Below, piece by piece: positions 12,684 through 35,300 of a DNA stretch of 37,336 nt. A program made the position numbers and the translations under genes. Numbering within the stretch: position 1 is the stretch's first letter; each line of letters opens with the position of its first letter. The notes under the pieces were generated by a model. It ran no database searches. It was not told where the DNA came from and worked only from the letters and a program-made list of their open reading frames with translations. The DNA comes from Opitutales bacterium (GTDB lineage Bacteria > Verrucomicrobiota > Verrucomicrobiia > Opitutales > Oceanipulchritudinaceae), in contig JAFIGH010000048.1 in the NCBI GenBank assembly GCA_020831525.1, forward strand, positions 1 to 37,336, read 5' to 3'.

Positions 12684-12857
12684 ATGCGTATCCATTATGA
12701 GGATGGAAACGTTGTCGACTTGACGCTGTTTTCAGAGCTTTATGACCTGACTTTTGTCGTCACTTCAAAGGCCGTCTATTATTCAAGATCAAAAATCTCC
12801 GTGTATCTTGATGCTAAGCTCGCCGTCAATGGATTCGAGGCCCGCGAACGAAGGTGA
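12684..12857 (+). CDS. Small ORF of unknown function (57 aa), uncertain
   Basis: I do not recognise this ORF. It runs from an ATG at 12684 to a TGA at 12857 and translates to a protein-like chain: MRIHYEDGNVVDLTLFSELY, then DLTFVVTSKAVYYSRSKISV, ending AVNGFEARERR. Hydrophobic and polar residues alternate as in a small beta-rich domain, unlike the Arg/Pro-rich repeat translations around it. It lies in a patch distinctly richer in A+T than the rest of the window. It overlaps the chosen start of the downstream serine hydrolase by 47 nt in another frame, so at most one of these boundaries is right as drawn. No ribosome site is obvious. It may be a remnant of a longer gene. Confidence 0.3.
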   Translation: MRIHYEDGNVVDLTLFSELYDLTFVVTSKAVYYSRSKISVYLDAKLAVNGFEARERR

Positions 12858-14427
12858 TTGCGGTAAATTCGCCGGCAGTGGAAGGGCGTGCGGCGCGCCG
12901 GTTTGCGCGGCGGTGCTGTTGTTTGTCGGCTGCGCCGCGCTTTCAGACCGCGCGCGGGTGTTGCCTGAAGACCCCGCCGCCGCTTTGGACCGGGCCATGC
13001 CGGTCCTGCGGCTGGACGACGGCTCGGTCTTTGAGCCGGGGCTGGCGGAATGGATGGAGCACTTGGCCGTGCCGGGGGTGAGTGTCGCGGTGATCGACGA
13101 TTTCGAAGTCGTCTGGACGGCGGGATTCGGCGTCCTCGAAGCGGGGAGCGACAGGCCGGTGACGCCCGGCACGCTTTTCCAGGCGGCTTCCATTTCCAAG
13201 CCGGTCACCGCGCTCATGACCATGCTGCTGGTGGAGGCCGGCGAACTCGATCTCGATGTTTCCGTCAACGAATGGCTCAGGGAATGGACGCTGCGTCCGG
13301 ACGGGCCGGGGATCGACCGGGCGCCGACCCTGCGGGAACTGCTCGGCCACACCGGGGGTCTGCCGCCGGGCGGCTTCGCGGGTTACGATCCCGGGGCCGA
13401 ATTGCCGGACCTGCGGCAGATGCTCGATGCCGAGCCCCCGGCGGTGAACCCGCCGGCCACGATCGTCCGGCCTCCCGGCGAGGCGCTGGTTTACGGCGGG
13501 ATGGGTTACATGGTGGTGCAGCAGGTATTGACGGAACGCACCGGCATGGACTTCGCCGAACTGGTGGAGCAACGGGTCTTCCGGCCCCTCGGCCTGCGCT
13601 ACAGCACCTTTGCGCAGCCCCTGCCGCCCGAGCGCGCACGGCAGGCCGCGAGCGGACACAACGTCGTGGGCGGGGTCCTGCCGGGACGCTGGCGCGTGCA
13701 GCCCGAGCAGGCGGCGGCCGGGCTCTGGACGACGCCGGGCGACGCCGCTGTGATCGCGATCGAGACGGCCAAAGCGAGGCGCGGCCTGCCCGCGACTTTG
13801 GTCTCCCCGGCGGCTGCGGAGTGGATGTTGACGCCCCACCGTCGCCATATGGCCCTTGGATGGATGCGGCCGCCCGGGGCGCCCGGCGGGCTTTTTGCCC
13901 ACAGCGGTGCGAACCACGGCTATCGGGCTTACCTGCTCATGCATGCCGAGACCGGCCACGGAGTGGCCGTGATGACCAACGCCGACTCCGGCGGGAAACT
14001 CCTTGTGCCGGTCATCGCGGCGGTGGCGGAGGCCTTCCGCTGGCCCGCCCGCATGCGGCCGCCGGTCGCGCCGGACGCACGGCTCTACCTCGTCGACGCC
14101 GTGCACGGAGCGGAGCGGGCGCTGGAGGATTACCTCGACCAGCGGCGGCGGCGCCCGGAAGCGGTTTCGCCGGAAGATCTGCACGATTGGGCAAGCCGTT
14201 TGCTCTTCCGCGGCCGCTTCGATGACGCGCTCCTCGCCTTCAGGAAAAACACGGAATTGTATCCGGAGAGCGAATACGCTCACCTGCATCTTGCGCGCGG
14301 TTACTTCGTCGCCGACCGGAAAGACGACGCCTTGGCCAGCGTTGAGCGCGCCTTGGAACTTGCGCCCGGTCTTGCGCCGGCCCTGCGCCTCCGCGCCCGC
14401 CTGACCGAACCCGGAGCGGACGAATGA
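12811..14427 (+). CDS. Lipoprotein-like serine hydrolase (class C beta-lactamase family) with C-terminal TPR region
   Basis: This is a predicted penicillin-binding-protein/esterase-type serine hydrolase of the beta-lactamase fold (PF00144 family). Numbering from the ATG at 12811 (538 aa), the SxxK nucleophile motif is SISK at 127-130, the YxN position reads YGG (228-230), and the KTG position reads HSG (364-366). The YGG and HSG variants are common in the esterase-like branch, so substrate cannot be told. LLFVGC ending at Cys 41 looks like a lipobox, which suggests an outer-membrane or periplasmic lipoprotein, although the segment before it is long. Residues about 465-530 form tetratricopeptide-like helices (LLFRGRFDDALLAFRKNTEL, then a second pair). 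Starts at 12754 (TTG) and 12829 (ATG) are also in frame, and none has a clear ribosome site. It is followed by a hairpin at 14462-14483. Confidence 0.85.
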   Translation: MLSSPSMDSRPANEGDCGKFAGSGRACGAPVCAAVLLFVGCAALSDRARVLPEDPAAALDRAMPVLRLDDGSVFEPGLAEWMEHLAVPGVSVAVIDDFEVVWTAGFGVLEAGSDRPVTPGTLFQAASISKPVTALMTMLLVEAGELDLDVSVNEWLREWTLRPDGPGIDRAPTLRELLGHTGGLPPGGFAGYDPGAELPDLRQMLDAEPPAVNPPATIVRPPGEALVYGGMGYMVVQQVLTERTGMDFAELVEQRVFRPLGLRYSTFAQPLPPERARQAASGHNVVGGVLPGRWRVQPEQAAAGLWTTPGDAAVIAIETAKARRGLPATLVSPAAAEWMLTPHRRHMALGWMRPPGAPGGLFAHSGANHGYRAYLLMHAETGHGVAVMTNADSGGKLLVPVIAAVAEAFRWPARMRPPVAPDARLYLVDAVHGAERALEDYLDQRRRRPEAVSPEDLHDWASRLLFRGRFDDALLAFRKNTELYPESEYAHLHLARGYFVADRKDDALASVERALELAPGLAPALRLRARLTEPGADE

Positions 14428-16750: not shown

Positions 16751-16919
16751 TCTGCGGCGGAGAAGAGCCGCGGACAGAGCGGATTCCCGCCTCGGGTGCG
16801 ACGAAATGCGACGGCGCGTGGGGGTTCGGTGGACTGTGGTTGCGGGGAGAGGTTTTTTGGAGCGTTTTTGATTGCGGAGGCGAGGGGTCGGAGTGCTGAC
16901 TAGAGGCTTCCCCGATTTC

Positions 16920-19900
16920 ATGAATCCCCTGGTTGCCAAATATGTCGGTCGTCTTGCGTTGACGACAGCTGCCGTGACGGCTGTTTTTTTCCTCTTTATC
17001 CTGGCATGGGCATGGCTTTTTCGTCCGGCTGTGCCGGACCGGCCGCATGAATATGACGCGGAGGCCGTGGCGCGGGCGCAGGAGACGCGCGACGAGCGCT
17101 TTGATTCGGAGAACCCGCCGGAGGTTTTCCAGTGGGTCGACTATTCCGAAGGTGAAAATGCGTCATGGTTTCCGCGTGGGGAGGCACCGGTCCTCGCGGA
17201 GTTGGTGGAGGAGGGGCATCTGCCGCCGGTGCACGAGCGGGTGGGGCCGGAGCCGGTCGTTCTCAAAGGGGTCGACGGCATCGGCAACTACGGCGGCACA
17301 TGGACCTATCTCATTTCTTCGCCGGGGCAGATTGCGCAAGTACTGCCGCACCGGCTCTCCTACCCGAATCTGGTGCGCTGGACGCACTACGGACATCCCA
17401 TCGTCCCGCACCTTGCGCGGGATTACGAGGTGTCGGAGGATGCGCGCGAGTTCACCTTCTACCTTCGGCGGGGTGTGCGCTGGTCCGACGGGCATCCCTT
17501 CACGGCAGACGACATCATGTTCTGGTATGAGATGGAGGCGCAGGCGGAGGAGAAGATTTTTCCGGAGTCGGATGAAATCCTGCGCTTCCGGGGCGAGCGG
17601 GGCACGGTCGAGAAGGTCGACGATTTCACGGTGGTCTTCCGTTTTCCCGAGCCCAACGGACTTTTCATCGAGCGCATGGCCTCGTATCCGGGGCTCTGGG
17701 TCGTCGAGTTTCCCGCGCACTTCCTGCGTCAATACCACCCGGACCTTGGCGACGCGGAGGTGATCGAGCAGCTCCGCCGCGAGCGCAACCTTCCTTCCGC
17801 CCGTGCCGTTTACCGCACCTACTTTTGGGGCGCGGGCGACTACCGGCGTCCGCGCCTTTGGCCGTGGATCGAGCGCGGGCCGCGCACCAATCCGCCCTAC
17901 ACCTTTGTGCGCAACCCGTATTTCTTCGCCGTCGACACGGAGGGTAACCAGCTCCCGTACTTCGACCGCCTGCTCTTCGACCTGCGCTCACCGGAGATGA
18001 TCAGCGTGGCGGCCTCGAACGGGGAGGTCGTGCTCCAGCCCAGCGGGGTGCAGATCAATCAATACACGCTCCTCGTCGACAACATGGAGCGCAACAACTA
18101 CAAGATGTTCCACTGGATGTCGGGCGACCGCTCGCCCTTTGTCATCCAGCCCAACCTCAACCGGCGGCCCGACCCGCGCGATCCTGCTTCCGAGAACAAG
18201 CGCTGGCTCTTCAACCAAAAAGAATTCCGCCAAGCCCTCTCGCTCGCGATCAACCGGGCGAATATCATCCAGACGGAATACATGGGGCTCGCCGAACCGG
18301 CCCAGGCTGCGCCGCCGCCGCAGAGTCCGTTCTTCCATGAGCGGCTCTACCATGCTTTCACCGAGTTCGATCCGGAGCGTGCGGGCGAACTCCTAGACGC
18401 CATCGGCCTCACGCAGCGCGACCGCGAGGGCTACCGCACTTTCCCCGACGGAACCCACCTCCAGCTTTTTCTCAATCTCTCCGGTGCCATCGGCGGCGGG
18501 CCCGGTCAGGCCCTTGTCGAAAACTGGGCCGACATCGGCCTGCGCGTGACGGCACGGGAGCGCTCGCTCGGCCTTTTCCGCACGGAGGTGGAGGCCCTCC
18601 AGCACGACCTCAGCGTGTGGGGCAGCAACGGTGAATACATGCCCCTCCTCGAACCGCGCATGCTCGTGCCGAGCAATCCGTATTCGGACTGGGCGCGGGC
18701 CTACGCATTCTGGTTCCGTCGCGGCGGGTTGCACGGCGATCCGGCGGCGGACGGCCCCGGGGCGGAAGAACCTCCGCCGGACAGCCCCATCCGGCGCTCC
18801 ATGGAGCTTTACGATGCCGCGCTCGGGGCCACCACGCAGGAGGAACAGGTGGAGATCTTCAGCGAGGTCATGGACATCGCGGCGGACAATCTCTGGACGA
18901 TCAGCGTTGCTAGTTCGCCTCCGCGCCTCGTCGTGACGGACGAGGGCATTATGAACGTGCCGCGCAACGCCGTGCACAGCTGGGATTTCTTCACGCCGGG
19001 GAACACCTTCCAGGAGACCTATTCGTGGATCGACCCCTTTGACGCGCCGGGTGCGCGCGAGCAGGTGAAGAGCCTCATCATCAATCCCACAGCCCCGCGC
19101 TACGCCCGGGTGATGGGTACGGTGGACATCGGCAAGGTGATCCAACGCCTCCTCCTGGGCATCACGGCGGCGGGACTGCTCATGGTGGGCTTCCGCCATC
19201 CATATGTGGGCCGCCGCCTCCTTATCCTCGTGCCCACGCTCTTTATCATCTCGGTCGTCTCCTTTATCATCATCCAGCTGCCGCCCGGCGACTTCCTCAC
19301 GACATACCTCGCCCAGTTGGAAGAGCAGGGCGGGGGCGCGGCGGAAGAGCGCATGGAGGAGATGATGGACCTTTTTCACTACGACGCCGGGATGGTCGAA
19401 AAGTATGTGCGCTGGCTCGGAGTCCCGTGGTTTGTCACTTTCGAACGCGAGGACCGCGGTCTGCTCCAGGGCTTTCTCGGGCGGTCCATGGAAACCGGCG
19501 GCGCCGTCAACGACATCGTCGGCGACCGCGTCATGCTCACCGTCCTCATCTCCTTTGGCACGATCATCTTCACATGGCTGGTGGCCTTCCCCATCGGTAT
19601 CTACTCCGCCGTGCGGCAGTATTCGATGGGCGACTACGTGGCGACGTTCATCGGGTTTATCGGCATGTGTATCCCCAATTTTTTGCTCGCCCTCATCCTC
19701 ATGTATGTCAGCTCGCAACTCCTGGGTATCAATGTATCGGGGCTTTTCTCTCCGGAATACGCCGCGCAGCCCGACTGGACATGGGGCAAGGTGGTCGATC
19801 TCTTGAAGCATATCTGGATCCCGATCATCGTCGTCGGAACGGCGGGGACGGCGGGCATGATCCGCGTCATGCGGGCCAACCTCCTCGACGAGTTGAAAAA

Positions 19901-20228
19901 GCCCTACGTCGTCACGGCGCGGGCCAAAGGAGTGCGGCCCTTCCGCCTCCTCATGAAGTATCCCGTGCGGCTGGCCTTGAATCCCTTCATCTCGGGAATC
20001 GGCGGGATCTTCCCCATGCTGCTCTCCGGGTCGGCCATTGTCGCCATCATCCTCAGTTTGCCCACAGTGGGGCCGCTGCTCCTCTCGTCCCTCATGTCGC
20101 AGGACATGTATATGGCGGCGTCGCTGCTCATGATTTTCTCCCTCCTCGGCGTCCTCGGCACCCTCGTGAGCGACCTGCTTCTTATGTGGCTCGATCCGCG
20201 CGTGCGCATGGAAGGAGGGACGAAATGA
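16920..20228 (+). CDS. Fused family-5 solute-binding protein and OppB-type ABC permease
   Basis: This is a 1102-aa importer component of the peptide/opine/nickel (Dpp/Opp) class. Residues 11-33 form an uncleaved membrane anchor. Residues about 60-730 are a family-5 extracytoplasmic binding protein; the signature FTFYLRRGVRWSDGHPFTAD lies near 178-197. A hydrophobic helix follows (VIQRLLLGITAAGLLMVGF, about 740-758), then a short basic RHPYVGRR. An OppB permease domain takes the rest, with RRLLILVPTLFIISVVSFII, QLPPGDF and an EAA-type loop (ARAKGVRPFRLLMKYPV, about 1000-1016). The frame opens at 16872 (TTG), but the ATG at 16920 starts directly before the anchor. It overlaps the OppC gene by ATGA. 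Binding protein and permease are normally separate genes. The substrate is unknown. Confidence 0.92.
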   Translation: MNPLVAKYVGRLALTTAAVTAVFFLFILAWAWLFRPAVPDRPHEYDAEAVARAQETRDERFDSENPPEVFQWVDYSEGENASWFPRGEAPVLAELVEEGHLPPVHERVGPEPVVLKGVDGIGNYGGTWTYLISSPGQIAQVLPHRLSYPNLVRWTHYGHPIVPHLARDYEVSEDAREFTFYLRRGVRWSDGHPFTADDIMFWYEMEAQAEEKIFPESDEILRFRGERGTVEKVDDFTVVFRFPEPNGLFIERMASYPGLWVVEFPAHFLRQYHPDLGDAEVIEQLRRERNLPSARAVYRTYFWGAGDYRRPRLWPWIERGPRTNPPYTFVRNPYFFAVDTEGNQLPYFDRLLFDLRSPEMISVAASNGEVVLQPSGVQINQYTLLVDNMERNNYKMFHWMSGDRSPFVIQPNLNRRPDPRDPASENKRWLFNQKEFRQALSLAINRANIIQTEYMGLAEPAQAAPPPQSPFFHERLYHAFTEFDPERAGELLDAIGLTQRDREGYRTFPDGTHLQLFLNLSGAIGGGPGQALVENWADIGLRVTARERSLGLFRTEVEALQHDLSVWGSNGEYMPLLEPRMLVPSNPYSDWARAYAFWFRRGGLHGDPAADGPGAEEPPPDSPIRRSMELYDAALGATTQEEQVEIFSEVMDIAADNLWTISVASSPPRLVVTDEGIMNVPRNAVHSWDFFTPGNTFQETYSWIDPFDAPGAREQVKSLIINPTAPRYARVMGTVDIGKVIQRLLLGITAAGLLMVGFRHPYVGRRLLILVPTLFIISVVSFIIIQLPPGDFLTTYLAQLEEQGGGAAEERMEEMMDLFHYDAGMVEKYVRWLGVPWFVTFEREDRGLLQGFLGRSMETGGAVNDIVGDRVMLTVLISFGTIIFTWLVAFPIGIYSAVRQYSMGDYVATFIGFIGMCIPNFLLALILMYVSSQLLGINVSGLFSPEYAAQPDWTWGKVVDLLKHIWIPIIVVGTAGTAGMIRVMRANLLDELKKPYVVTARAKGVRPFRLLMKYPVRLALNPFISGIGGIFPMLLSGSAIVAIILSLPTVGPLLLSSLMSQDMYMAASLLMIFSLLGVLGTLVSDLLLMWLDPRVRMEGGTK

Positions 20229-21385
20229 GCGCGCCGGCATCCGCCAAACCGCCGCAGGCTTCCGCGCCGCCGGTAAACACCGCCACGCTCTCCCAGTGGC
20301 AGCTCATCCGCCTGCGGTTCTCGAGGCACCACCTCGCCGTCTGGTCGCTCTTCTTCCTCGCCATCCTCTACGGCATCGCGCTCTTCGCGGCGTTCCTCGC
20401 CCCCTACGAGCGCAATTCCAAGAACTTCGACTACACCTACGCGCCGCCCATGCTCCCGCGCGTGAGCCTTTCCGACGGGCTCCACGTCTACGGCATGGAC
20501 CGGCACACCGATCCGCTCAACCTCAAGACCTACTACGTCGAGAACCGCGACCGCGTTGTTCCGCTCGGTTTCTTCGTGCGCGGCGACGAATACAGCTTCC
20601 TCGGGCTCTTCCGCACGGACGTCCACTTCTTCGGGGTGAACCTCAGCCGCTTCGAGGCGAAGGGCTACGAGGGCGATTTCGCGGAGCCGGTCTACTTTCT
20701 CCTCGGGGCGGACCGGTTCGGGCACTGCATTTTCAGCCGCATCCTCTACGCCTCGCAGGTGAGTCTCTCCATCGGGCTCATTTCCATCGTTATTTCCTTC
20801 GTTCTCGGCATCTTCATCGGGGGGATTTCCGGCTACTACGGCGGCAGTATCGACAACTTCATCCAGCGCTCCATCGAGGTGCTCAATTCCTTTCCCTCGC
20901 TGCCGCTCTGGATGGCGCTCGCCGCCATCATGCCGCCCACATGGTCGCCGCTCACCGTCTATTTCGCCATCACCGTGGTCCTCAGTCTTTTCGGCTGGAC
21001 AGGGCTCGCCCGTGTCGTGCGCGGCAAAATCCTCTCCCTGCGCGAGGAGGACTACGCCGTCGCCGCGCGCCTCCTCGGGGCCAGCCACAGCCGCATCATC
21101 TTCAAGCACCTCGTGCCCGGGTTCACGAGCCACATCATCGTCACGCTCACGCTCAGCGTCCCGGGCATGATCCTCGGCGAAACGGCCCTGAGCTTCCTCG
21201 GCATCGGCCTGCGCCCGCCCGTCGTGAGCTGGGGCGTCATGCTCCAGGACTGCATGAATATCGACGTCGTCGCCAACTACCCGTGGCTCCTCATGCCCGT
21301 CATCTTCATCGTCCTCACCGTCCTCGCCTTCAACTTCCTCGGCGACGGTCTCCGCGACGCCGCCGACCCCTACGCTTCCCGCTGA
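20225..21385 (+). CDS. OppC-type ABC transporter permease
   Basis: This is a 386-aa inner-membrane permease that would pair with the OppB half of the preceding fusion. The ATG at 20225 lies inside the stop of that gene, and the upstream open frame is a shadow. TM1 is at 39-60, and residues 61-158 form a periplasmic segment much longer than in ordinary OppC. The core motif LLGADRFGHCIFSRILYASQ (159-178) has His-Cys at the place often occupied by arginine and aspartate. The EAA loop EEDYAVAARLLGASHSRIIF starts at about 274 and contacts the ATPase. The C-terminus LNFLGDGLRDAADPYASR is typical. Long first loops are also known in YejE-like members. No ATPase gene follows: the next gene is convergent after 61 bp. 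Confidence 0.95.
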   Translation: MSAPASAKPPQASAPPVNTATLSQWQLIRLRFSRHHLAVWSLFFLAILYGIALFAAFLAPYERNSKNFDYTYAPPMLPRVSLSDGLHVYGMDRHTDPLNLKTYYVENRDRVVPLGFFVRGDEYSFLGLFRTDVHFFGVNLSRFEAKGYEGDFAEPVYFLLGADRFGHCIFSRILYASQVSLSIGLISIVISFVLGIFIGGISGYYGGSIDNFIQRSIEVLNSFPSLPLWMALAAIMPPTWSPLTVYFAITVVLSLFGWTGLARVVRGKILSLREEDYAVAARLLGASHSRIIFKHLVPGFTSHIIVTLTLSVPGMILGETALSFLGIGLRPPVVSWGVMLQDCMNIDVVANYPWLLMPVIFIVLTVLAFNFLGDGLRDAADPYASR

Positions 21386-21446: not shown

Positions 21447-24074
21447 TCATGGGTGGTCGGCAAGGTAGCATACGGCCTCCTGGTCCTGGGGATTGGCGAG
21501 TAGGCGGGCGTGCAGGCCCAGCTTTTCGAGGTCGATGAACTTCAGCACGTGCCCGAGCGTGGTATAGTCGGGCAGGAAGTCGCCGAGGTGGTTGGGGGCG
21601 TCGCGGAAGAAGATCCTCGCGAAGGCGCATTCCGCACGCTCCGTGAAGACGGGCACGTAGATGATATGCTCCTCCACGAGGTCCTGGAAGAAGTGGGTAC
21701 CGTAGGAGACTTCAGGGATATGGCCGTGACCCGCGCTGGAGAGTTCGACGAGGACGTTGGCGTTATCGATGTCGGCGTAGCTCACGTTTACGCCGAGGTC
21801 GACATTGCTGGAACCCCAGCGGCCGGGTCCCATGAGGATGAAATGGCGCGGCGCGACCGCCGGGTGTGTGTTGAGGCGCCCGACGACGCGACCGAGCGTC
21901 TTCTTGTCGGGCGGGTAGTCGATATTGGAATACGCCTCGGGGTCGATGTAGGCGATGAAGCGGATCGATTCGACAACCCCGCCGGTGATGACGCGTTGCG
22001 CGCGGAAGAGAACGCGGTCGTCGGGGATATCCTCCGGGAGTTCAACGGCGACGGCCTGCTCCTGCATCCAAAGCGGACGGCATTGCAGGAGATTGACGCG
22101 CATGCGCCCGTCGGGCTCGAAAAAGGCCGTGAACTCGATGTCGACCGCGCGCCCGTAGGCCTTTTCGAGGATGGCGAGGATTTGGCCGAGCCTCCGCACG
22201 AGGGGCGTTTGGCGGATGAGGTTGTTGAAGGTAAGGATGTATTGGCCCGAGGGCTTTAGAAACCGTGTGAAGGGATCCTCGAGGTGGCCGTCTTTCCAGC
22301 GAGAAACGATGTAGTGAAGGTTGGGGTAGCCGATTCCATTGAGAATGTCGCTCACCGGCAGGGAGACGAAAGCATTGTCGTCGAGGTCGATGACATCCGC
22401 CTCGTGCTGGGAGTACTTCGCGGCTTCGCTGCCGACCTCGGGCCGCAGTTGGGGATGGCTCACGGCGATGAGTCTGGGGTAGTCGCCGCCCACGCGGTCG
22501 ACCGCGCGTGTGCCGAGGCCGAAGACGAGCCGGATGACGCCCTGCCGCGGGTCGATACGGTCGTTCCATGCGTAGAGGTTCCGCGAGAAGGCCACGCCCG
22601 CCAGCGTGGGAAAGAAGTATTTGCGGTATTGCGAACCGGAGACGCGTTGCACGAGTATGGCCATCAGCTCCTCTTTGTTTTCGAGGTTGCGGCGGCGGCG
22701 GTAGGAGACGGCGTCGGGCCCGAGCGAGCTGGCGTAGACGAGCTGGATAGCGCGGATGAGCTGCTGCAGGCGTTCGTCGAGGGTGCCTTGGTTGGGGCAG
22801 AACTCGCTGCGGTACTTTCCCGCAAAGGCCCCGCCGAAGCTGTCTTCGAGAAGACTGCTGGAGCGTACGATGATCGGCACCGGACCGAAGTGTTCAAGCA
22901 TGTTGCGGAACTGAGCCAGCGTCTCGGGCGGGAAGGTGCCGGTGAGAAAGCGTGCTTCCACGTCTTCGAAGGGCGGGGTGGGGCGGTCGGGGCGCGTTGT
23001 TTCCATACGCATGCGGAACAGTTCGTTTTGCACAAGGTAGGTGTAGTAAACGTCCGAGCCGATGAACCAGGAGTCATGTTCTTCGAGGAGCGAAGGGTCG
23101 TCGAGTCCGTCGCGATCATCCTTGAGAATTTCCCGCGCGAGGAGCATGCCCACGGCTTTGCCCCCGATTCGGCCGGAGCCGATGAGCCGCTCACGGATGT
23201 TGAGCAGGGCCTGGAGATTGAGGTAGCGCGAACCAAGACGGTTGAATGTCGGGTCTTTGCCGACGAGCATGCGAACGAACTCTTCTTTGAGGACGGCGAG
23301 GTCGTCCTCGATCGGCGCGGAGGTGGCGATGGCCCGTTTGAGGCGCTCGTGCAGGCTCTCCCATGGCGAACCCGTCTTTGCGGCGGTTGCCTCGCTTGCT
23401 GCCATGGCCTCGACCCGGTCGCGGTCAAAGGTGGGCCACAGACGGTCGCCATCGACCCGCTGCAGCGAAAACATGTCGGGCGAATAGCGGTCCCATACCT
23501 TGATGAGGCGCAGGAGGCGCTGGCCGCCGCCGCGGAAGAGTTCGATGAAGACCTGCGTTGTATTGTAGATCCGTGCCACCATCTGGTTGCTGTGGCGCTG
23601 CCGCAGGATCGCGAAGTAGGCGATCGTCTGCATGTCGTAGAGAAAGGGGCAGGCCGTTTGGAAGAAGTTGGCCAGCATGTTCTCCGTTCCCCAGCGCTCC
23701 ACCAACTCGGAGAGGCAGTCGAAGACATAGTAAGTGCCCGGCCCCTCCGCCTCCGCGAGCAGGTTTACTTTGCTGGAGAAGGTGTCGAACCCCTCGCCGG
23801 GATCGAAGGCGAACCGCCGGATCGATTCGTCCGCGTGCGGAACCACCGGAGTGTGGTTGGCAAAGCGGACATACACCACTTTCCGGCCCTCGGCATGCGC
23901 GCGGCGCAGCATGAGCCCGACGAATTCCCGGTAGTCGTCGAGATCATCCACGTGCCAGACGACGTTGTCCCCAAGGCGCAGTTTGTCCATGAGACGGTCG
24001 AGACCGTTGTGGCCTGTGGAGGCTAGGCCGCCGAGGGCAGGCAGCGATACGCAATACTTATCCGGCGTTGACAT
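21447..24074 (-). CDS. PEP/pyruvate-binding (PPDK_N) protein with degenerate KaiC-like N-terminus
   Basis: This is an 875-aa predicted cytoplasmic protein. Residues about 10-215 look like a RecA/KaiC-type fold: GLDRLMDKLRLGDNVVWHVD aligns with the Walker A position but has no GxGKT, and TYYVFDCLSELVERWGTENM is Walker B-like. Residues about 295-680 are the PEP/pyruvate-binding ATP-grasp domain, with IGGKAVGM (303-310), IIVRSSSLLEDSFGGAFAGK (401-420), and DIEFTAFFEPDGRMRVNLLQ ending in CRPL. The phosphohistidine swivelling domain and PEP-binding barrel of PEP synthase are absent. The last roughly 190 residues instead contain HFILMGPGRWGSSNVDLGVN followed by VSYADIDNANVLVEL. It is therefore not a normal PEP synthase; a phosphotransfer or regulatory role is possible. 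The start (MSTPDKYCVSLPALGG) has no ribosome site, though GATAAAAT lies just upstream (24090-24083). Confidence 0.85.
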   Translation of the reverse strand: MSTPDKYCVSLPALGGLASTGHNGLDRLMDKLRLGDNVVWHVDDLDDYREFVGLMLRRAHAEGRKVVYVRFANHTPVVPHADESIRRFAFDPGEGFDTFSSKVNLLAEAEGPGTYYVFDCLSELVERWGTENMLANFFQTACPFLYDMQTIAYFAILRQRHSNQMVARIYNTTQVFIELFRGGGQRLLRLIKVWDRYSPDMFSLQRVDGDRLWPTFDRDRVEAMAASEATAAKTGSPWESLHERLKRAIATSAPIEDDLAVLKEEFVRMLVGKDPTFNRLGSRYLNLQALLNIRERLIGSGRIGGKAVGMLLAREILKDDRDGLDDPSLLEEHDSWFIGSDVYYTYLVQNELFRMRMETTRPDRPTPPFEDVEARFLTGTFPPETLAQFRNMLEHFGPVPIIVRSSSLLEDSFGGAFAGKYRSEFCPNQGTLDERLQQLIRAIQLVYASSLGPDAVSYRRRRNLENKEELMAILVQRVSGSQYRKYFFPTLAGVAFSRNLYAWNDRIDPRQGVIRLVFGLGTRAVDRVGGDYPRLIAVSHPQLRPEVGSEAAKYSQHEADVIDLDDNAFVSLPVSDILNGIGYPNLHYIVSRWKDGHLEDPFTRFLKPSGQYILTFNNLIRQTPLVRRLGQILAILEKAYGRAVDIEFTAFFEPDGRMRVNLLQCRPLWMQEQAVAVELPEDIPDDRVLFRAQRVITGGVVESIRFIAYIDPEAYSNIDYPPDKKTLGRVVGRLNTHPAVAPRHFILMGPGRWGSSNVDLGVNVSYADIDNANVLVELSSAGHGHIPEVSYGTHFFQDLVEEHIIYVPVFTERAECAFARIFFRDAPNHLGDFLPDYTTLGHVLKFIDLEKLGLHARLLANPQDQEAVCYLADHP

Positions 24075-26382: not shown

Positions 26383-29300
26383 TCACTGGCCGAGGATGTA
26401 GAACCGCCGGTCGCCCGCTCCGCCGGATTCCGGGTCGGCCCATTCGAGGACGTCGTGGGGTTCGAGGGTTCCGGATTCGAAGGGCTGCCAGGCGTCAAGG
26501 GTCTCGGAGACGAGGACTTCGTAGGGTTCGCCGGATTCGCCGAGGATCTGGATGCGCAGGGGGGCGGTTTCGACAATGCGGATAACGGGTTGGCCGAGGC
26601 GGCGGGCGCGCCACTCGACGGCGGCGGGATCGACGCCGGGCGGGGCGGCGAAACGGAGGGCTCCGGTTTCCGGCAGCGAGGCCGTGGTGAAGGGCACCCA
26701 CTCACCGCTCCCCGGTTCGCGCCAATCGAGGGCGTATTGGAAACCGGGGATGCCAACGAGATCGACCGCTTCGCCATCCGGGTCGGCGAGGGCCTGGGCG
26801 GACGCGGAATCGTAGTCGCGCACCCACACACGCGCTTCGCCAAGGCTTTCACCGCCGAAGGGATCGCTCACGCGGAAGGGAACCGTGTCCCAGCCGGCAA
26901 AGGCGGGTGGCGGTGCGTAGCGGAGGCGCTCCGGGCCAAGGTCAAGGGCGGCCCCGCCGGTGCTCGCGGCACCGGGCAGGCTGAGGGTGAGCGGATCGCC
27001 TTCGGCGTCCTCGGCAAGGGCGAGGAGGTCCGCCGCAACGATGTCGAGGGCGCGCCCGCGCGTCGCCGAAAAGGCGGGCGTGGTCGTAATGACGGGATCG
27101 GTGTTGACCGGGATAACCGAGACCGCGCGCACCGCCGTGGCTTCGCGGTTGGCACCGTCGCGGAGGGTGAATTCGATAACGCGGTCGCGCTCCGGCGGGT
27201 GGCGCTCGTCGTTTTCGTAGGTCACGAGGCGCATGAGTTCCTGCATGATCGTGTGGTCCGATTGTGCGGAAATGTCGATACGCAGGGTCTGCGTGGCGGG
27301 CAGGCCGACGGCGATGAGGCCGAGGTCCGCACCGTTGCGCCGCACGATGCCGCCGGCGATATCGTAGAGGCCGCTGCCGGAGGGGCCGGTGCCCAGGCGG
27401 AGGCGGTCGCCCGCGCTGCCGCCCGCAATGATCTGCGCGGTGAGGCGTCCGCCGGCAAATTGCAGTGGTTCGCCCACGGTGACATCGGCGGCGGGCACAA
27501 GGGGGATTGGAGGATCGCCTTCCGTCCACGTGAGGGCGGCGGGGTCGACGGTCACGGAGAGGTCGACGCGGAAGGGCAGGACCTCCACGGTGAAGGTGCG
27601 CGTGCCCGAGAGCGGGGGTTCACCGTCGTCGGTCACGCGCACGGTCACCGGATAGGTGGCCACGGGAACATCGCGCGAGGGCGTCCAGATGAAGAGGCCG
27701 GATGCGGGATTGATGGCCGTCCCCGCCGGAGCGCCCGCATCGAGGCTGAAGATGAGTTGGTTGGCCGGGATGTCGGGGTCGTTCGCGGCGATGACGAAGG
27801 CAACGGTTTCGTCCTGGTGTACCCGCTGGGCGGAAATGGGAAGAACCGTAGGCGGATGGTTGACCTCGAGGACCGTGAGCCGGAAGGTCTCCTCCGCCGA
27901 GAGCGACGGCCAGCCGTCATCGGTCACGCGCACGGTGATATACCACTCCGTTCCGCCGTGGGTCTCGGTCGTCTGCCATGTGATCCGCCCGGTCGAAGGG
28001 TTGATGGTCATGGCGGGCGGGATGTCGCCTTCGAGGGTGTGGGTGAGGGTCTGCGCCGGTTGGTCCGGGTCCGAGGCGGCGACGTCGAGGACGAACCGTT
28101 GCCGCTCGGGAATGGTCTGGTCGGCGATCGCCGCGATCTGCGGCGGGGCGTTGACAAGGGAGGTGGCGGTGGTGGCGTCGGGGGTGTCCGGAGCGTCTTC
28201 GACGTTACCGGCGGCGTCGCGGGCGCGGCTGTGGAAGGCGTAGGTCCGGCCCGGTTCGCCCTCGAAGAAGGCGGAGGTGGCCGTTGTGTTGCCAAGCCAA
28301 AGCTCGAAGGGGCCGCCGTCGGTGGATACATAAATGTCGTAGCCGACGACGCCGTTGGCATCGAGCCCACTCCATTGGACGAGGAAGCCGGGGTAGTTCT
28401 CGGCGGGCAGAGCGGTCACGGAGGAGACCGGTGCCGTCGTATCGATAAATTTATCGGGGCCGAAGACGAGTGTGTAGGTCCCGCCACCGCCGTGGTCCAC
28501 GAGGTGGAGGATGGATTCCTTGAGCGGGCGCAGACCCGGTCCGCGGAAGGTGCGGTCGGTGATCCAGGCGTTCGCGCCGGGCAGGAGGACGCGTCCGTCG
28601 GAGCGGATCACCTGTTGCAGGGGCATTTCACCGTTTGTCGGATCGGGCAGGCGGGTGTAGAACCAACCGGGCGGAACGGACCCGAGACTGAGCGTGACTG
28701 TTGGTTGGGCCGGAGAGGGCGTGGTCGAGAAAGCGCCTTGACCGATCCACCCGACCGACTCGACGTCGCCGTCCGTCCAATGGACTTCGACCGGGCGCGG
28801 GCCGACGGGAAAGCGGTCGCTCACGAGAAAGCCCCGGCGCGCGGGCATCCCGGACCGGACTTCGTCGACGAGCCCAAGGGTTTCGTGGATGGAGACGCCG
28901 CGGATGAGCGAGATACGCGGACTCTCGAAGGCATCGAGGTGAACAAAGGAGGCTTCGTAATCGATGAAGCGTCCCTGCAGGGTGGACTCCAGCCACCAGA
29001 TGGCGGAGCCGGTTGTGCCCGGCGCGATCTCCCCGAATTCAGCCGTGAGGCTCTCCCGCGCGGTCACCCCACCGACTTCGACGGAGACGATGCGGATGTC
29101 CACGGCGAGGCCCTGCTCGTTGGCAACGATTTCGGGCTGGGAGGTTTGAATACTGAGATCCCGCGCCGCGCCGTGGCCGACGTTGCGGGCCAGCACACCG
29201 AGGCTGAAGGGCACGGACGGCTCGACGACATCGGTGAAGGGATCGTTGGCGAAGACGTCGCGCTCGTGATAATAATCGAGTTGCAACTCGGGCTGAGGGT

Positions 29301-32300
29301 GGACGACGATTTCGACGGGATCGAGCGACACCGTCACGGGCACCCCGCCCTGGTCGTAGAAGAGCGTTCCGCCGATGGTGTAGGGCACCGGTTCGCCGCC
29401 GGGAGCGGCATCAAGGGCCGGGATGATGCGCCAGCTGCGGAGGTCTTCGCCGCCGTCGGGGAGGGGGTTGGCGGCGTCCGGATCGGACCATGTATTGTCG
29501 GCACCCGCGACCACGGCGAAGAGATCGCCCCGCCGTTCGCCCGTCGCATCGCGGATGGCGATATCGACAAAAATGTTTTCGAGGTCGACCCCGGAGTCGT
29601 TTTCGAGGCCGAGCCGGGCATCGAAACCAGTACGGGTGAGAACGGCTTCCTGAGTGATTTCCAAGGTGACGGTGGCGCATACGGGCCGCCGCTCTTCGCG
29701 CGTGAAGCGCTCGAAATAGAAATCGAAACCGGCGAACGGATCGGCGAAGCCGTCCACCTGGCTGTCGAGAAAGCTCTGCACGACGGCGGCGCTGAGGGCA
29801 TTGAATTCCGCGCGCGGAATGAAGTCGGTGCTGTCGCCGGGGGGGACGTCTTCGACTTCATGGATGTCGGCATCGGCGTAGTCCCATGTGCGGTTCCAGC
29901 GGTCGATGAAGCGGTGGGTTTCCTCGGCTGAGACGGCGGACGGGCGGGGCAAGTTGAGCAGGGCCGTGCGCTCGGCCAGGCTGATGCGCCGGGGAAGGGG
30001 ATCTCCGCTGTCGGCGGCGGCATCGAAGACTTCCATCCATGTGCGGATGGAACCGGTGTTGTCGCCCGCCACCCAGGCCTCGCTTCCGGTCATGAAGACG
30101 AGCCAGTCGCGGTAAAGCTGGATGCGTTCGAGGTAGGTGCGGAGGCCGTCCACCACACTGCTGCCGGCGGGATCGCCCCCGCCGTGGGTAGCGAAGCCCG
30201 GAGCGTAGGGGGCGGGCGCTCCGGCAGGCGACATGGTGCCAAAGGGAGAGACGTCGCCGAGGAGATCGTTCAGCGAGGAGAGGCAGGCGAGTATATCGCC
30301 CGCAAGATCGTCGCCGAGCGCGCCGAGGGCGGTCTTCGCGCAGCCGAAGGCGTCGCCTTCGCTGACACACAAAGCGATTCCCACGATGGCTTGCACGTTG
30401 TCGTCGAAGCTGGCAAGGAACTCGAGCAGTTCCTCGTCGCTGACGGGCGGCGAGCCCGGCGGGCGTTCGCCGAATGCGCGCTCCAGCAGCTCGGCGGCCT
30501 CGTCGAGGCGCGAGATCAGATCTTTGGCCGTGCCGAGGGCGCCGGCGGCGGCCTGCATTTTTTTCGTCCCCAGTTTGCCGCAATTGATAATGGGATCGAG
30601 GAGCGGGCCGAGGCAGTCGCCGACACCGCTGCCCCGTACCCACTCGCGGACTTGGGCGACACCGTCGAGGGCGTCCGAGATTGTTCCACGGAAGGCTTCC
30701 CCTGCGATCCGCCGGAAGCGTTGCCCCCCCGTCTCGGTCCAGCCGCCCCCGCCGGAGGTGTGGTGGACCGCGCGGCGCTGGCCGGAACCGGGGTGTCCGC
30801 GGAAGACCTGGGACTCCGGTTGCGGCGGGCGCGTCCGCTCCCGGCAGCTCTCCGGCGAGATGGCCGAGGAAGTCCGCCGGCGAATCCGCAGGTTGCCGCA
30901 TTCGTAAATGTAGTCCACCCGCGCGCGCCGGACACAGTCCGCGCCCGGGGGGGCTGAGGATTGCACGGCAAAGGGTCCGGAGGGGCTTTCCGCGCGCGTG
31001 AAGCGGACGGGAATGGTGCGGGAGGTCAGCGCGTCCAAATCGCCGATTTCCTCCGCCGCCGCGTCAACCGCGATGCCCGGGAGTTGGGGCAGGCGGAAGT
31101 GAACGTCGTCCGCGCGCACGAGGCCGTGGTTGGTGATGATGAAGTCCACCTGCACGCTGTCGCGGTTTTCGAGAAGGCTGTGCAGATCCACGGACTCGGG
31201 GTAAATCGTCACCACTGGTATCGGCACATTGGTTTCAAATTCGGTGCGGATGCGGATTTCGTAGCGGTCTTCAAACTCCACGGGAACCACTTCCCAAAAG
31301 GTCCGGACGGGTTCGTAGTTGAGAAAGGCCGACACTTCGGCGGTGTTGCCTGCGGCGATGAAGGCGGTGTTTTCAAACGGCAGGTGCCGCGTCGCTTCGA
31401 TGGTGACATCGTAGTGACCTTCGGGCAGGCCGTCGGTTTCGAACCTGCCGTCCGGTCCGGTCAATCCACTTGCCACGGGCGCGCCGGTGCGGGTGTCGTA
31501 GAGCGTGACGCGCGCCCCCTCGACCATCGGATTGCCCTCGGCGAAGTAGGTGAACTCGTTCTCCACGTCGACGGCGAATCCGCCGGTTTCCGTCGAAACA
31601 ACATCCAACACAAACGGAATCCGCGCGAAGGCGCCGTCCTCTTTTTCGCGCACGAGAATTTCTCCGGAGACCGTGCCCGAAGGGGTGTCGGCAGGCGGGC
31701 GGGCGGTCACGGTGAACTCCTGGTAATCGTCGGGCGCGATGGGATCGAGCGCGGTCACCGGAAGCGAGAGCCAGGGCAGCGGCGAGGCAAGGATCTCCAA
31801 CGGCCCGGACGCGGCTCCTCCGGTGTTGACGACGATCAGCCCGGTGTGCTTCGTTCGCCCGCGCACAACGTTGCCTTCGAGGCGTCGCGGATCGACCTCA
31901 AGTTTGGGCCGCTCGGCGAGGACGCGGAAATCGAGCGTGAGGACCGCCTCCGATCCGTCGGCGGCCACCAACGTAACCGGCACTTCGCCAAGGCCCTCAA
32001 TGTCGAGCGGGCTCACGACCAGTTCGGCTTCGAGGCTTCCCCCGGCGGGAAGGTCCGTGCCGTGGGGAAAGCGCACTTCCAGCCCGGCCAGACCCCCGCC
32101 GTCGAGGGGACCGGCGTGCAGACCGTGGAGATCGACGTTGCCGGGATTCGAGAGGGTGAAGGGCAGTACGGCATCCTCCCCGCCAGTGGTGAGGCGGGCT
32201 TCGAGCCGCCGCGGCTGGGCGTCGAAGCCGCGCAGGCGGACGCTGTCCTGGACGCTGAATTCGGCCGCACCTGGGTGCCCGGCACCGATCCCGAAGGTCC

Positions 32301-35300
32301 CGCTTTCGCGCAGCAACGGCTGCCAGACTTCGTTGAACTGGCCGTTTGCATCGGTGCGGAACTCAATGCGGCGCTCAAGCTCACCGCGCGTGATCCGCAC
32401 CACGACCGGCACGTTGGCGGCGGGCGAGCCGTCGGTTGCCTTGACCGCCGTGCCACTGAGCGGAATCGGCGTGCCGGCGGGCGCGTCGGTAATGGCGGCT
32501 TCGACGGTGGCAGTGTAAGCGGCGGCGACCTCCACGGGGTTGGCGCCCTGGCGGAGGTTGTTGTCGTTGCGCAGGTCGCGCATTCCGGCCGACGGATCGA
32601 CTTCGCCCGTCACCTGGAAGGTCCCCTCGATCCGGGGTGCCGGCACGGCGAGGGTCCGCTCCAGGATCTCTCCGCTTGTCAGGGAAATTTCGATACGCTC
32701 CTGGCCCACGAGGAAGCGGGTCGGGCGGGAAGGATCGTCGCTCACATAGACGCGGAGCGTGACCGGACCTTCGGCTGTTCCGGGCCCGTGGTTGGTCACA
32801 CGCAGGAGCACGTCCATGGTGGATTCGGTGAAGACGGCAGCGGGCGGCTCGACCGCCGTGAGGGCAAGGTCGGGCCGGGAAATCGAGGTGACGACAAGGT
32901 TGGCCGCGCCGGGCAAATGTTCGGCGGCGTAGACGTTGAAAACAACGGTCGCGGGCTGGTCCGGCACGGGCGCGGGCAAGGTGTCCACCGGCACGGAGGC
33001 GGAGGCCGCGCCGGGGGGCAGGGTGAGCCCGGCGGCATGCGCCACTTTGCCGGGAGCGTTGCTTTCGAGGGCCACGGTCAGGGCGGTGCCGTCCACCGGA
33101 TACCGGGTGACGGTCAGGGTCGCGGCGGCGGACGTCCCGGCGAGGGCCGACGGGGGATCGAAGCGCAGAGAGAGGTGCGGCGTGGTGTCGTCCACGACCG
33201 TGAGGGTGACCGTGTTGGAGACGGACACGGGATCGGCCGGGCGTCCGATCCGCGCGCGGAAATCGACCGTCTCGGCGCTGCCCTGAACGATCCCGCTCCG
33301 CGCCGAAACCGGCAGGTGCACGGCTTCCTGGCCGCCCTCGAAGAAAACCGCCCCCGCCAAAGGAACGAGATCCGGACGCGGGTTTTCAAGGCGGATCTCC
33401 TGTGGCAGAAGGTTGATGCCGGTGCGGCGGATGGTCAAAACGGTGCTTTCGCCGTTATTTCCGGTGCGAATGGTGTCCTCGCGCAACGAAAGTTCCAGGA
33501 GGGGCACTTTGGGATCGAAGACGGCCAACTCGGTTGAGGCGGAGAGGTGGCTGGCGGCTTCGGCGCGCAGGACCGCGACCGTGTTTCCGGTGGGCACGGG
33601 GGTGTTGGCGGCGCGCACGACCGCTTCGCCCTCTGTCTCTCCGGCGGGGATAAGGATCGACGGCGGAAGGTGCAGCCGCCCCGGCTGTGAAGCCTCCAGC
33701 CGGACGCGCAGGTCGGTGGCGCGCGGGTGTGGCACCGTTACCCGCAGGACAGTGCTTTCGCCTTCAGTCACGGCGGGTTCATCGAGGGACAGGGCGAGGG
33801 CGGCGCGGTCGGTGTCGCGCACCACAAGGTCGAGCACGGCCGGGGCAAAGCCATCGGCCGAGGCCGTTATCTGGGTGGCGCGGTCTCCGGCGGGAACACC
33901 GTCGGGAACGGGTGTAATGGGAATCCGGATACTGCGCTGTCCGGCGGGAAACTCCACGCTCTCCGGGGCGGTGGCGGACGACGGATCGGAGGCGGCGAGG
34001 GAAACGGTCAGCGGATTCGTCAGCGGCCCGGTGCGGAGGAGGCGGGGCCGCAGAGCGCTTTCACCGGCGTTTTCATCCACGGCGGCAGTGGCGGGCTCGA
34101 AGAAAAGCGCGGGCGACAGCGGAACGGGCGGGGAGAGAGCGCGGTTGTTTTGAGTGAACCATTCGTCGAGGGTCCGGTCTTCGTCGGCCTCCACCCGGAA
34201 ACGCACCGAACCGTGCGGGACCGCGCGGGGAAGATCCACCGTGACGGTGCGGAGCACGCTGTCGCCCGGGGCGATCGCTTGCGCCGCTGCGCTGTAGGCT
34301 TTGAGGAAGACGGCGTCCGCCCCGGAGGGACTGCTCTCGATGTAGAGGGTTTCGAGCCAATCTCCCGCCAAGGGTGCCGTGCCTTCGTTTGTCACGGTCC
34401 AGCTGACGGTCACCGGAGTGCCCGCCTGCACCGTTTCGGAGACAGTCAGCGCGCTCACGGCCAGATCGGGAAGTAATGGTTTTGCGATTTCAATTTCATG
34501 AATTGCGACCGACGCCATGGCGTTGCCCGCGAGATCGGTCAAGGCCGGGCCGATGCGCAGCGTGTGGAGCCCGGGAGTTTCCTGCTCGGCAAAGGTGACG
34601 CGGTAGGTGTCGGCGGCGATCCGCACGACGGTGGCGGCGGTCAGGGTGCCGCCGGGGGTTTCGAGTTCGAAGGCGCTCCGGGTCACCGAGCTGTTGGCCA
34701 TTTCTTTGCTGAAGGTGATGACAAACTGCGAGAATCGGTTCACCGGTCCCTCGGGGGTCACGGCGGTCACTTCCGGCGGGACCGGGCCGACGCCGTTGAG
34801 CGTGAGGGCGGTGGCGGTCTGCGCGGGCTCGTAGGTGACCCCTGCGGCCACATCGAGTCCGGACCAAGCGGTGAACCCGTCGGCGAGAACGGTGGCTTCG
34901 AAAAGCGTGTGCGCGTCGCCCACGGCGGGGTTGAGGTTCACGGTGACGAGGGAGAAGGCCCCCCGGAGGCGGGCAATGCCCGAGATCTCCACGCGGGGCA
35001 GTCCGGTGGAGTAGGCGCGGAAGGTCGTTTCGGCGTCGGCGGGGAGGGTGAGGTTGCCGGTGATGGTCAGAACATCCGGCGGAGCGGAGGAGGAGGCGCG
35101 GCGCATGTCGAGGCGGGCGGGACAGATGTGCCCCGTGAGGCTACCGGTGCCCTGCAGTTGGCCGGCCGCATCGATGGTGAGATCGGTGGTGAGCATTTGC
35201 CCGCCGCCGACGAGTTCGACGAAGACGCGCTTAAACATCGTGGCGGCAACCTCCGTGCCGACCTCGATGGTGCCGCCGTCGGTGGGTTCGAGGGCGGAGT

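Follow-up and report, generated by a model that had tools for sequence, protein, structure and literature searches.

A family-5 solute receptor and an OppB-type permease encoded as one chain: a probable receptor-tethered importer of the Opp/Dpp class

The window analysed here, 37,336 nucleotides of an Opitutales bacterium (assembly GCA_020831525.1, contig JAFIGH010000048.1), holds a plus-strand open reading frame (ORF) at 16920–20228 that encodes a single chain of 1102 amino acids, in which a family-5 solute-binding protein (SBP) is joined to an OppB-type permease of the ATP-binding cassette (ABC) transporters. We consider it probable, at about 75%, that the product belongs to an Opp/Dpp-class importer in which the solute receptor and the OppB subunit form one covalent chain. 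The frame opens with an ATG at 16920, has an in-frame TTG 5' of it at 16872, and closes with a stop codon at 20226–20228. Its product consists, in order, of an N-terminal membrane helix, the family-5 SBP, a linker, a second membrane helix and a complete OppB permease. A first-pass annotation made from the sequence alone had described the two proteins as one chain of this length, and the ORF, Pfam and NCBIfam results bear that description out.

Pfam placed SBP_bac_5 (PF00496) at residues 161–574 (E 8e-47; 160.5 bits against a cut-off of 32.4) and BPD_transp_1 at residues 890–1096 (E 2e-25, over the cut-off). Several NCBIfam models of OppB-type permeases span residue 762 to about 1096, and because they start at residue 762 we take the permease part to be whole. 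At an E value of 0.001 this part matched only Opp, Dpp, Nik, Gsi, Yej and Sap models of NCBIfam; the OppB and OppC models matched in the fused protein and in the OppC that follows it scored below their equivalog cut-offs. The start of that OppC gene overlaps the stop of the fused gene by 4 nucleotides (ATGA, 20225–20228), and its product matches BPD_transp_1 and OppC_N in Pfam.

The fused frame is shared by many relatives. Three orthologues (93%, 93% and 79% identity) have it too, which goes well beyond what chance would allow. Of the 37 near genomes, 11, counting the window's own, contain between them 19 full-length, stop-free fused genes at 48–100% identity. A search for homologues gave 581 confirmed loci; among the best 79, a selection that should not be read as a frequency, 68 have a single frame matched by both halves, 10 are split and 1 is interrupted. 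Five of the 68 run off a contig end, and in one (L115) the frame is broken upstream of the junction. An even draw of 288 genomes across the window's phylum, with two candidates scored per genome at E 1e-100, yielded 17 genomes (again counting the window's) with a full-length fused gene, at 19 loci; a partial frame crossing the junction in G259 stands outside this count. By NCBI name the 68 fused loci belong to Verrucomicrobiota (36), Planctomycetota (13), Lentisphaerota (4) and Gemmatimonadota (3), with one in each of seven other phyla and 5 unplaced; nearly all are metagenome assemblies, and the phyla with a single locus may be binning errors. The fused gene of Pelagicoccus mobilis (L094) comes from a strain record, and the closest named relatives of the window's gene are Opitutales (L063–L065). 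Fused and split forms both occur in one genome, G003. We counted as split two loci with the SBP and OppB in separate frames (G003:C155 and G033:C67); two that show an SBP only (G001:C93 and C512) end at contig edges and are assignable to neither form. A stop or frameshift between the domains, which had been named at the outset as evidence that would speak against a genuine fusion, was seen in only 1 of 69 family members: L085 (8180–11257) has several breaks, one of them in the linker region, and lies on a contig of a metagenome-assembled genome labelled with 4.7x coverage; it may represent either a low-coverage effect or a decaying gene.

In a tree of OppB sequences, 70 fused rows and L085 formed one branch (71 rows, SH-aLRT 99), and in an SBP tree 68 fused rows and L085 formed one clade (69 rows, support 100). 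Both trees came from quick searches and carry a long-branch warning; the OppB tree leaves out 4 of 9 outgroup rows, whose translations contained stops, and its outgroup is not coherent, and the SBP tree used a simpler model. Judged by these trees, the fusion appears to be one old clade extending across several phyla and not an oddity of the window's genome, and the simplest reading would be that it arose once.

The closest split relatives of the fused clade (L132, L134, L136, L055/L056 and both systems of L131) have their OppB in the same larger branch and an OppC on the same locus; unlike the fused form, they have a separate receptor and OppB and no second helix. In L132, L134 and L136 the SBP and OppB genes share a frame and lie 3–6 nucleotides apart. 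By eye, a long N-terminal membrane anchor is present on the split SBPs of L134, L136 and the first L131 system, the N-termini of L133, L135, L140 and L141 are lipoprotein-like, and L139 has an ordinary-looking signal. The split lineages thereby offer a natural series of receptors with a signal peptide or lipoprotein start, membrane-anchored receptors and fused ones, and a path from a free or lipid-anchored receptor through a helix-anchored to a fused one is possible. A clean path from anchored to fused did not emerge: the nearest split OppB, that of the second L131 system (support 91, on a long branch), pairs with an SBP whose start is signal-peptide-like and not an anchor, and the anchor may therefore have arisen twice. 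At the L131 locus itself, where one SBP is anchored and its neighbour signal-peptide-like, two SBP–OppB pairs precede two consecutive OppC genes. An Opp-class fusion of a different kind was seen at L057 (1–1873, minus strand; G033:C67), where OppB and OppC are seemingly joined in one frame of 624 amino acids that runs off the contig end.

The topology of the fused protein was assessed from hydropathy, charge and an AlphaFold model. Hydropathy peaks at residues 12–30, 740–758 and 767–785. The model (63 sequences; pLDDT 84.2, pTM 0.78) has helices at residues 3–33, 710–721 (a short one), 736–759 and 761–786, and a weak stretch in the linker at residues 729–738, which are under pLDDT 50. It consists of two separate parts that match SBP and OppB/DppB structures: by VIA, 5ipw, SPH1118 and MelB align to the first, and the OppB/DppB structures 8j5q (Z 29.0) and 8z1y (Z 27.6) to the second, from residues 759–764. 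An anchor at residues 11–33 and a returning helix at about 740–758, both called in the first-pass annotation, were right to within a few residues. A hydrophobic helix lies within the segment aligned to residues 694–759 in 63 of 63 aligned proteins, across which this segment spans 64–93 residues. Net positive charge follows the helix in all 63, in support of the earlier proposal that a basic stretch lies on the inner side, ahead of the first helix of OppB. The N-terminal helix was counted in 64 of 64, with approximate start positions and with the truncated frame L115 included, which is not to be counted.

In DppB, the region between the first and second transmembrane helices is periplasmic by cryo-EM (PMC12136057, in excerpt); the amino end of OppB would therefore be cytoplasmic, and an even number of helices would be needed before it, as was found. 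By analogy with DppB, the extra helix would be what the topology demands. Together with hydropathy, charge and the model, this supports the two-helix topology first proposed, with the receptor predicted to lie outside, in the periplasm, and the N-terminal end of OppB inside in vivo. No obvious signal-peptidase site was seen by eye at the N-terminus (no predictor was run), and we infer that the anchor is not cleaved in vivo. About 58 helix-bearing residues separate the domain ends in the fused form, without a counterpart in the split SBPs and OppBs examined. The ratio of nonsynonymous to synonymous substitution rates (dN/dS) for linker and helix is 0.14 and 0.09 against the two relatives at 93% identity. 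Just after the receptor, at window positions 19035–19082, where the model has its short helix 710–721, the majority consensus of the family keeps the motif P-x-D-x-P-G-A-x-x-Q-x-K.

In the importer that we propose, the first helix would enter the membrane from the cytoplasm and the receptor would fold in the periplasm; the second helix would bring the chain back to the cytoplasm and allow OppB to insert in its normal topology. Each OppB would carry one receptor, which would remain close to its own OppB/OppC pore and hand over its ligand with no need to diffuse. The second half of the pore would be OppC, and the motor would be an OppD/OppF pair, which in the window's lineage is encoded elsewhere in the genome. 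The ligand would most likely be an oligosaccharide, possibly a uronate-containing one.

No ATPase gene adjoins the fused gene or OppC in the window, where a convergent gene with a PPDK_N domain follows (21447–24074, minus strand). The window's genome has nine oligo_HPY matches, including an OppD/OppF pair on contig C25. To identify the motor we relied on BLAST counts from both strands: 31 of the 68 fused loci carry 57 strong OppD/F-type frames (at least 200 bits), and 55 of the 57 best match the C25 pair among the nine ATPase frames of the window's genome, while 17 of 17 such frames at split loci best match a pair on contig C116. These counts replace a motif-based pick on the plus strand, in which 40 of 41 ATPases near fused genes best matched C25 and 15 of 15 near split genes C116, and which had missed 13. 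The C116 pair is disfavoured as the partner on the strength of the 55 frames, and we infer that the C25 pair serves the window's fused permease. As for C116 itself (G000:C116, L043), it encodes OppB, OppC, OppD and OppF, no family-5 SBP was found on the contig, and the neighbours include a BT_1020-like beta-propeller protein with a sialidase-like carbohydrate-binding module and sulfatase-like genes.

Linkage of the motor to the fused gene varies between genomes. C25-type pairs occur without SBP, OppB or OppC on the stretches fetched from G006:C29 (12 kb, contig interior), near a xylulokinase gene, and from G003:C138 (9 kb); the pair on C25 itself has a gene for a family-4 glycoside hydrolase about 2.4 kb away. 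In G029 the fused gene is on C20, and OppC with a C25-type pair on C23. The relative G020, a single contig, has one C25-type pair, at 692–693 kb, against three fused genes (5 of 6 PF08352 matches were compared there; the sixth, L199, has the same ORF length as L196 beside it), and on that account the motor is probably shared among several receptor-permeases. A wider and still tentative possibility is a modular class of importers in which several fusions, each with its own ligand, use one separately encoded OppD/OppF and sometimes a shared OppC; if so, the fusion would hold receptor and pore together while the remaining operon scatters.

OppC, too, can lie apart. Eleven fused loci with enough downstream sequence show no OppC on the locus; of 15 first listed, L104 and L106 have one and L110 and L112 have too little sequence. 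All 11 genomes hold an OppC at 60–66% identity. Genomes of this kind thus retain the partners although the operon itself has come apart. Opitutae fused loci of this kind, with OppC elsewhere in the genome, are L090, L091, L093, L095, L096, L098, L108, L113 and L122, and the neighbours of some of these genes encode iron superoxide dismutase, Fur, acetyl xylan esterase and M16 peptidases.

Foldseek gave SPH1118 as the first match of the receptor and MelB as the next. By VIA the receptor aligned with SPH1118 (7veu) at Z 41.7 and rmsd 1.9 over 597 residues, with 28% identity; the top row by Z was 5ipw (Z 43.0, rmsd 6.5), which was also the best sequence match. Despite its annotation as an oligopeptide binder, SPH1118 showed hardly any binding of yeast extract or tryptone, whereas galacturonate and its unsaturated trimer are both ligands of the protein (PMC9314435, in excerpt). 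The MelB structures were solved with raffinose and melibiose. When the SPH1118 contact residues were mapped by hand on the sequence alignment, Arg57, Arg496 and Trp594 corresponded to R145 (with a one-residue ambiguity), R580 and W688 of the window's protein, and Arg466, Arg438 and Asn324 to the differing residues L550, G522 and D403. Arg is present at the positions of Arg57, Arg466 and Arg496 in 53, 46 and 48 of the 63 aligned proteins, and Trp at that of the stacking Trp594 in 17, the window's included. Around other fused genes, 199 of 295 neighbours were scanned; counted from the 25 commonest families per scan and with no background control, they include 8 sulfatases, 7 enolase-superfamily C-domains, 6 GFO/IDH/MocA enzymes, 5 sugar-isomerase-like barrels, two asparaginases, and one each of UxuA, UxaC and alginate lyase. 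Because the receptor resembles the pectin-binding SPH1118, oligosaccharide uptake seems likelier than peptide uptake, and we lean towards an oligosaccharide as the ligand; that it contains uronate is a more tentative suggestion. The same architecture could instead import peptides, as would fit the NCBIfam matches to oligopeptide, dipeptide and nickel systems, the title of 5ipw (oligopeptide-binding protein OppA), the M16 peptidase genes beside two Opitutae fused copies, the asparaginases, and the induction of the SPH1118 genes on yeast extract (PMC7055323, in excerpt). Against this stand the binding behaviour of SPH1118, the sugars in MelB, the widely kept equivalents of Arg57 and Arg496, and the sulfatases, enolase-superfamily enzymes, UxuA, UxaC and alginate lyase among the neighbours, and a peptide substrate appears to us doubtful, though a real prospect.

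Several observations weigh against the importer as we have drawn it. The evidence for its topology is made up entirely of hydropathy, charge and fold, and against the relative at 79% identity (L065) the dN/dS of linker and helix is 0.53 over 58 codons, which implies a far higher rate of evolution in the linker than in either of the domains. Residue 550 of the window's receptor is Leu where 46 of 63 proteins have Arg. Two of the 57 ATPase frames at fused loci best match the C116 OppD; C25 (G000) starts 321 bases before OppD, and an upstream operon may have been lost; in other genomes, G036 among them, ATPase genes do come after the fused operon; in G002 no C25-type ATPase was found among the matches compared; and in G020 no OppC of the fused-gene type lies beside the third fused gene.

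Other explanations of the fused frame must be set beside these points. Were it an error of sequencing, assembly or gene calling that joined two genes, the break between the domains of L085 and the close, in-frame spacing of the split genes in L132, L134 and L136 would be in keeping with it, but the fused frame recurs in 68 of 79 loci from many assemblies, coexists with the split form in G003, and contains the helix-bearing stretch that the split proteins examined lack. On the frame shared by relatives we reject an artefact, whose probability we regard as negligible, in agreement with the initial judgement that this was no sequencing fusion. A genuine fusion might still be a polyprotein, cut in the linker after insertion so that an anchored or free receptor is released and the fusion only sets the ratio of expression. 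The low-confidence stretch and rapid evolution of the linker, and the membrane-anchored receptors of the split L134, L136 and first L131 systems, would suit such processing; the second helix, kept in 63 of 63 proteins, would however be needless for a cleaved receptor, and no common cleavage motif was seen by eye in ten linkers, and we think processing unlikely. As to subunits, the fused chain might form a homodimer, and each transporter would then have two receptors, at any rate at loci that lack a neighbouring OppC, as the 11 loci without OppC could suggest, together with G020, whose three fused genes (near 9, 16 and 1,918 kb) are met by two OppC genes of the fused-gene type. Yet OppC is found elsewhere in all 11 genomes: in 8 of them the only OppC of that grade (60–64% identity) and the only fused gene are on different contigs, and in G319 and G328 OppC adjoins a second fused gene. 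A homodimer without OppC is disfavoured by this inventory and very unlikely in our view. The covalent receptor–OppB importer with a separate OppC remains our preferred reading.

The features of the system are collected in Table 1. Elsewhere in the window, a minus-strand frame of 3642 amino acids (26383–37311) with bacterial Ig, putative Ig, CARDB and carboxypeptidase-regulatory domains probably encodes a giant secreted or surface protein, and a plus-strand gene (12754–14427) encodes a beta-lactamase-family serine hydrolase whose C-terminal part is a TPR stretch. We note for annotation that a fused gene can be named "permease" or "substrate-binding protein" alone, and that the transporter can look incomplete, with its ATPases, and in some Opitutae its OppC, encoded elsewhere.

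Table 1. Coordinates of the fused gene, its parts and the adjoining OppC gene in the window
Feature	Position	Strand	Basis
Fused gene, SBP family 5 + OppB permease, 1102 aa	16920..20228	+	ORF, Pfam, NCBIfam, relatives
N-terminal membrane anchor, residues 11-33, probably uncleaved	16950..17018	+	Hydropathy 12-30, model helix 3-33
Solute-binding domain, about residues 61-702	17100..19025	+	Pfam; SPH1118, 5ipw and MelB folds
Linker, residues 703-735	19026..19124	+	Model: short helix 710-721, then low-confidence stretch
Extra membrane helix, residues 736-759, outside OppB fold	19125..19196	+	Model, hydropathy; OppB/DppB structures align from 759-764
Complete OppB-type permease, residues 760-1102	19197..20225	+	Pfam, NCBIfam, structure matches
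OppC-type permease	20225..21385	+	BPD_transp_1 and OppC_N over Pfam cut-offs; NCBIfam OppC models

Compared with known importers, the window's system has the family-5 SBP and the OppB- and OppC-type permeases of the Opp/Dpp class; OppD/OppF with the oligo_HPY tail do not lie beside the fused gene, and the pair on C25 of the same genome is their putative counterpart. A separate receptor protein, usual in Opp/Dpp systems though not part of a strict definition, is not the case here; the receptor is covalently joined to the permease, as is characteristic of tethered importers. The DppABCDF system of E. coli and OppABCD of M. tuberculosis share with it the OppB-type fold (8z1y, 8j5q), an OppC-type partner and OppD/OppF-type ATPases, but in them the receptor stands alone as a soluble protein or lipoprotein (PMC12136057, in excerpt). 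SPH1118, the pectin-binding protein of Sphingomonas sp. A1, resembles the fused protein in its receptor fold and differs in being a separate periplasmic protein whose ligand-contacting residues are partly shared.

In NCBIfam at E 0.001, the permease part of the fused protein did not match permeases of the osmoprotectant or polar amino acid families, the OpuA/GlnPQ kind. OpuA has its receptor on the C-terminal side of a permease of another family, whereas the receptor here is N-terminal, of family 5 and on OppB only, with OppC separate. The OpuA of Lactococcus lactis is like the fusion in that its receptor is joined to the permease via a short linker and a hydrophobic membrane anchor, but it has two receptors on two like permease chains (PMC11065425, in excerpt). 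GlnPQ likewise has receptors tethered to its permease, by a flexible linker of 19 amino acids, but is a homodimer with two tandem receptors per chain (PMC8025302, in excerpt); in the fusion a single large receptor is followed by an added membrane helix and then by the permease. These two cases match the first-pass remark that fused receptors are known in glycine-betaine and glutamine ABC types, and its view that they are unusual in the Opp/Dpp class is consistent with our finding no description of an Opp-class receptor–permease fusion among the papers listed by searches of the open PMC library (subscription papers were not searched). The fixed 1:1 ratio that it also proposed would hold for receptor and OppB; because OppC is separate, each transporter would be expected to have a single receptor, unlike OpuA or GlnPQ. 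The tethered receptors studied so far in those two systems come two or more to a complex, and the related free, anchored and fused versions of one receptor and permease would make the effect of tethering on import testable. The principle of a covalent receptor is already known; what sets the present case apart is its occurrence in the Opp/Dpp class, as an N-terminal receptor on one of two different permeases.

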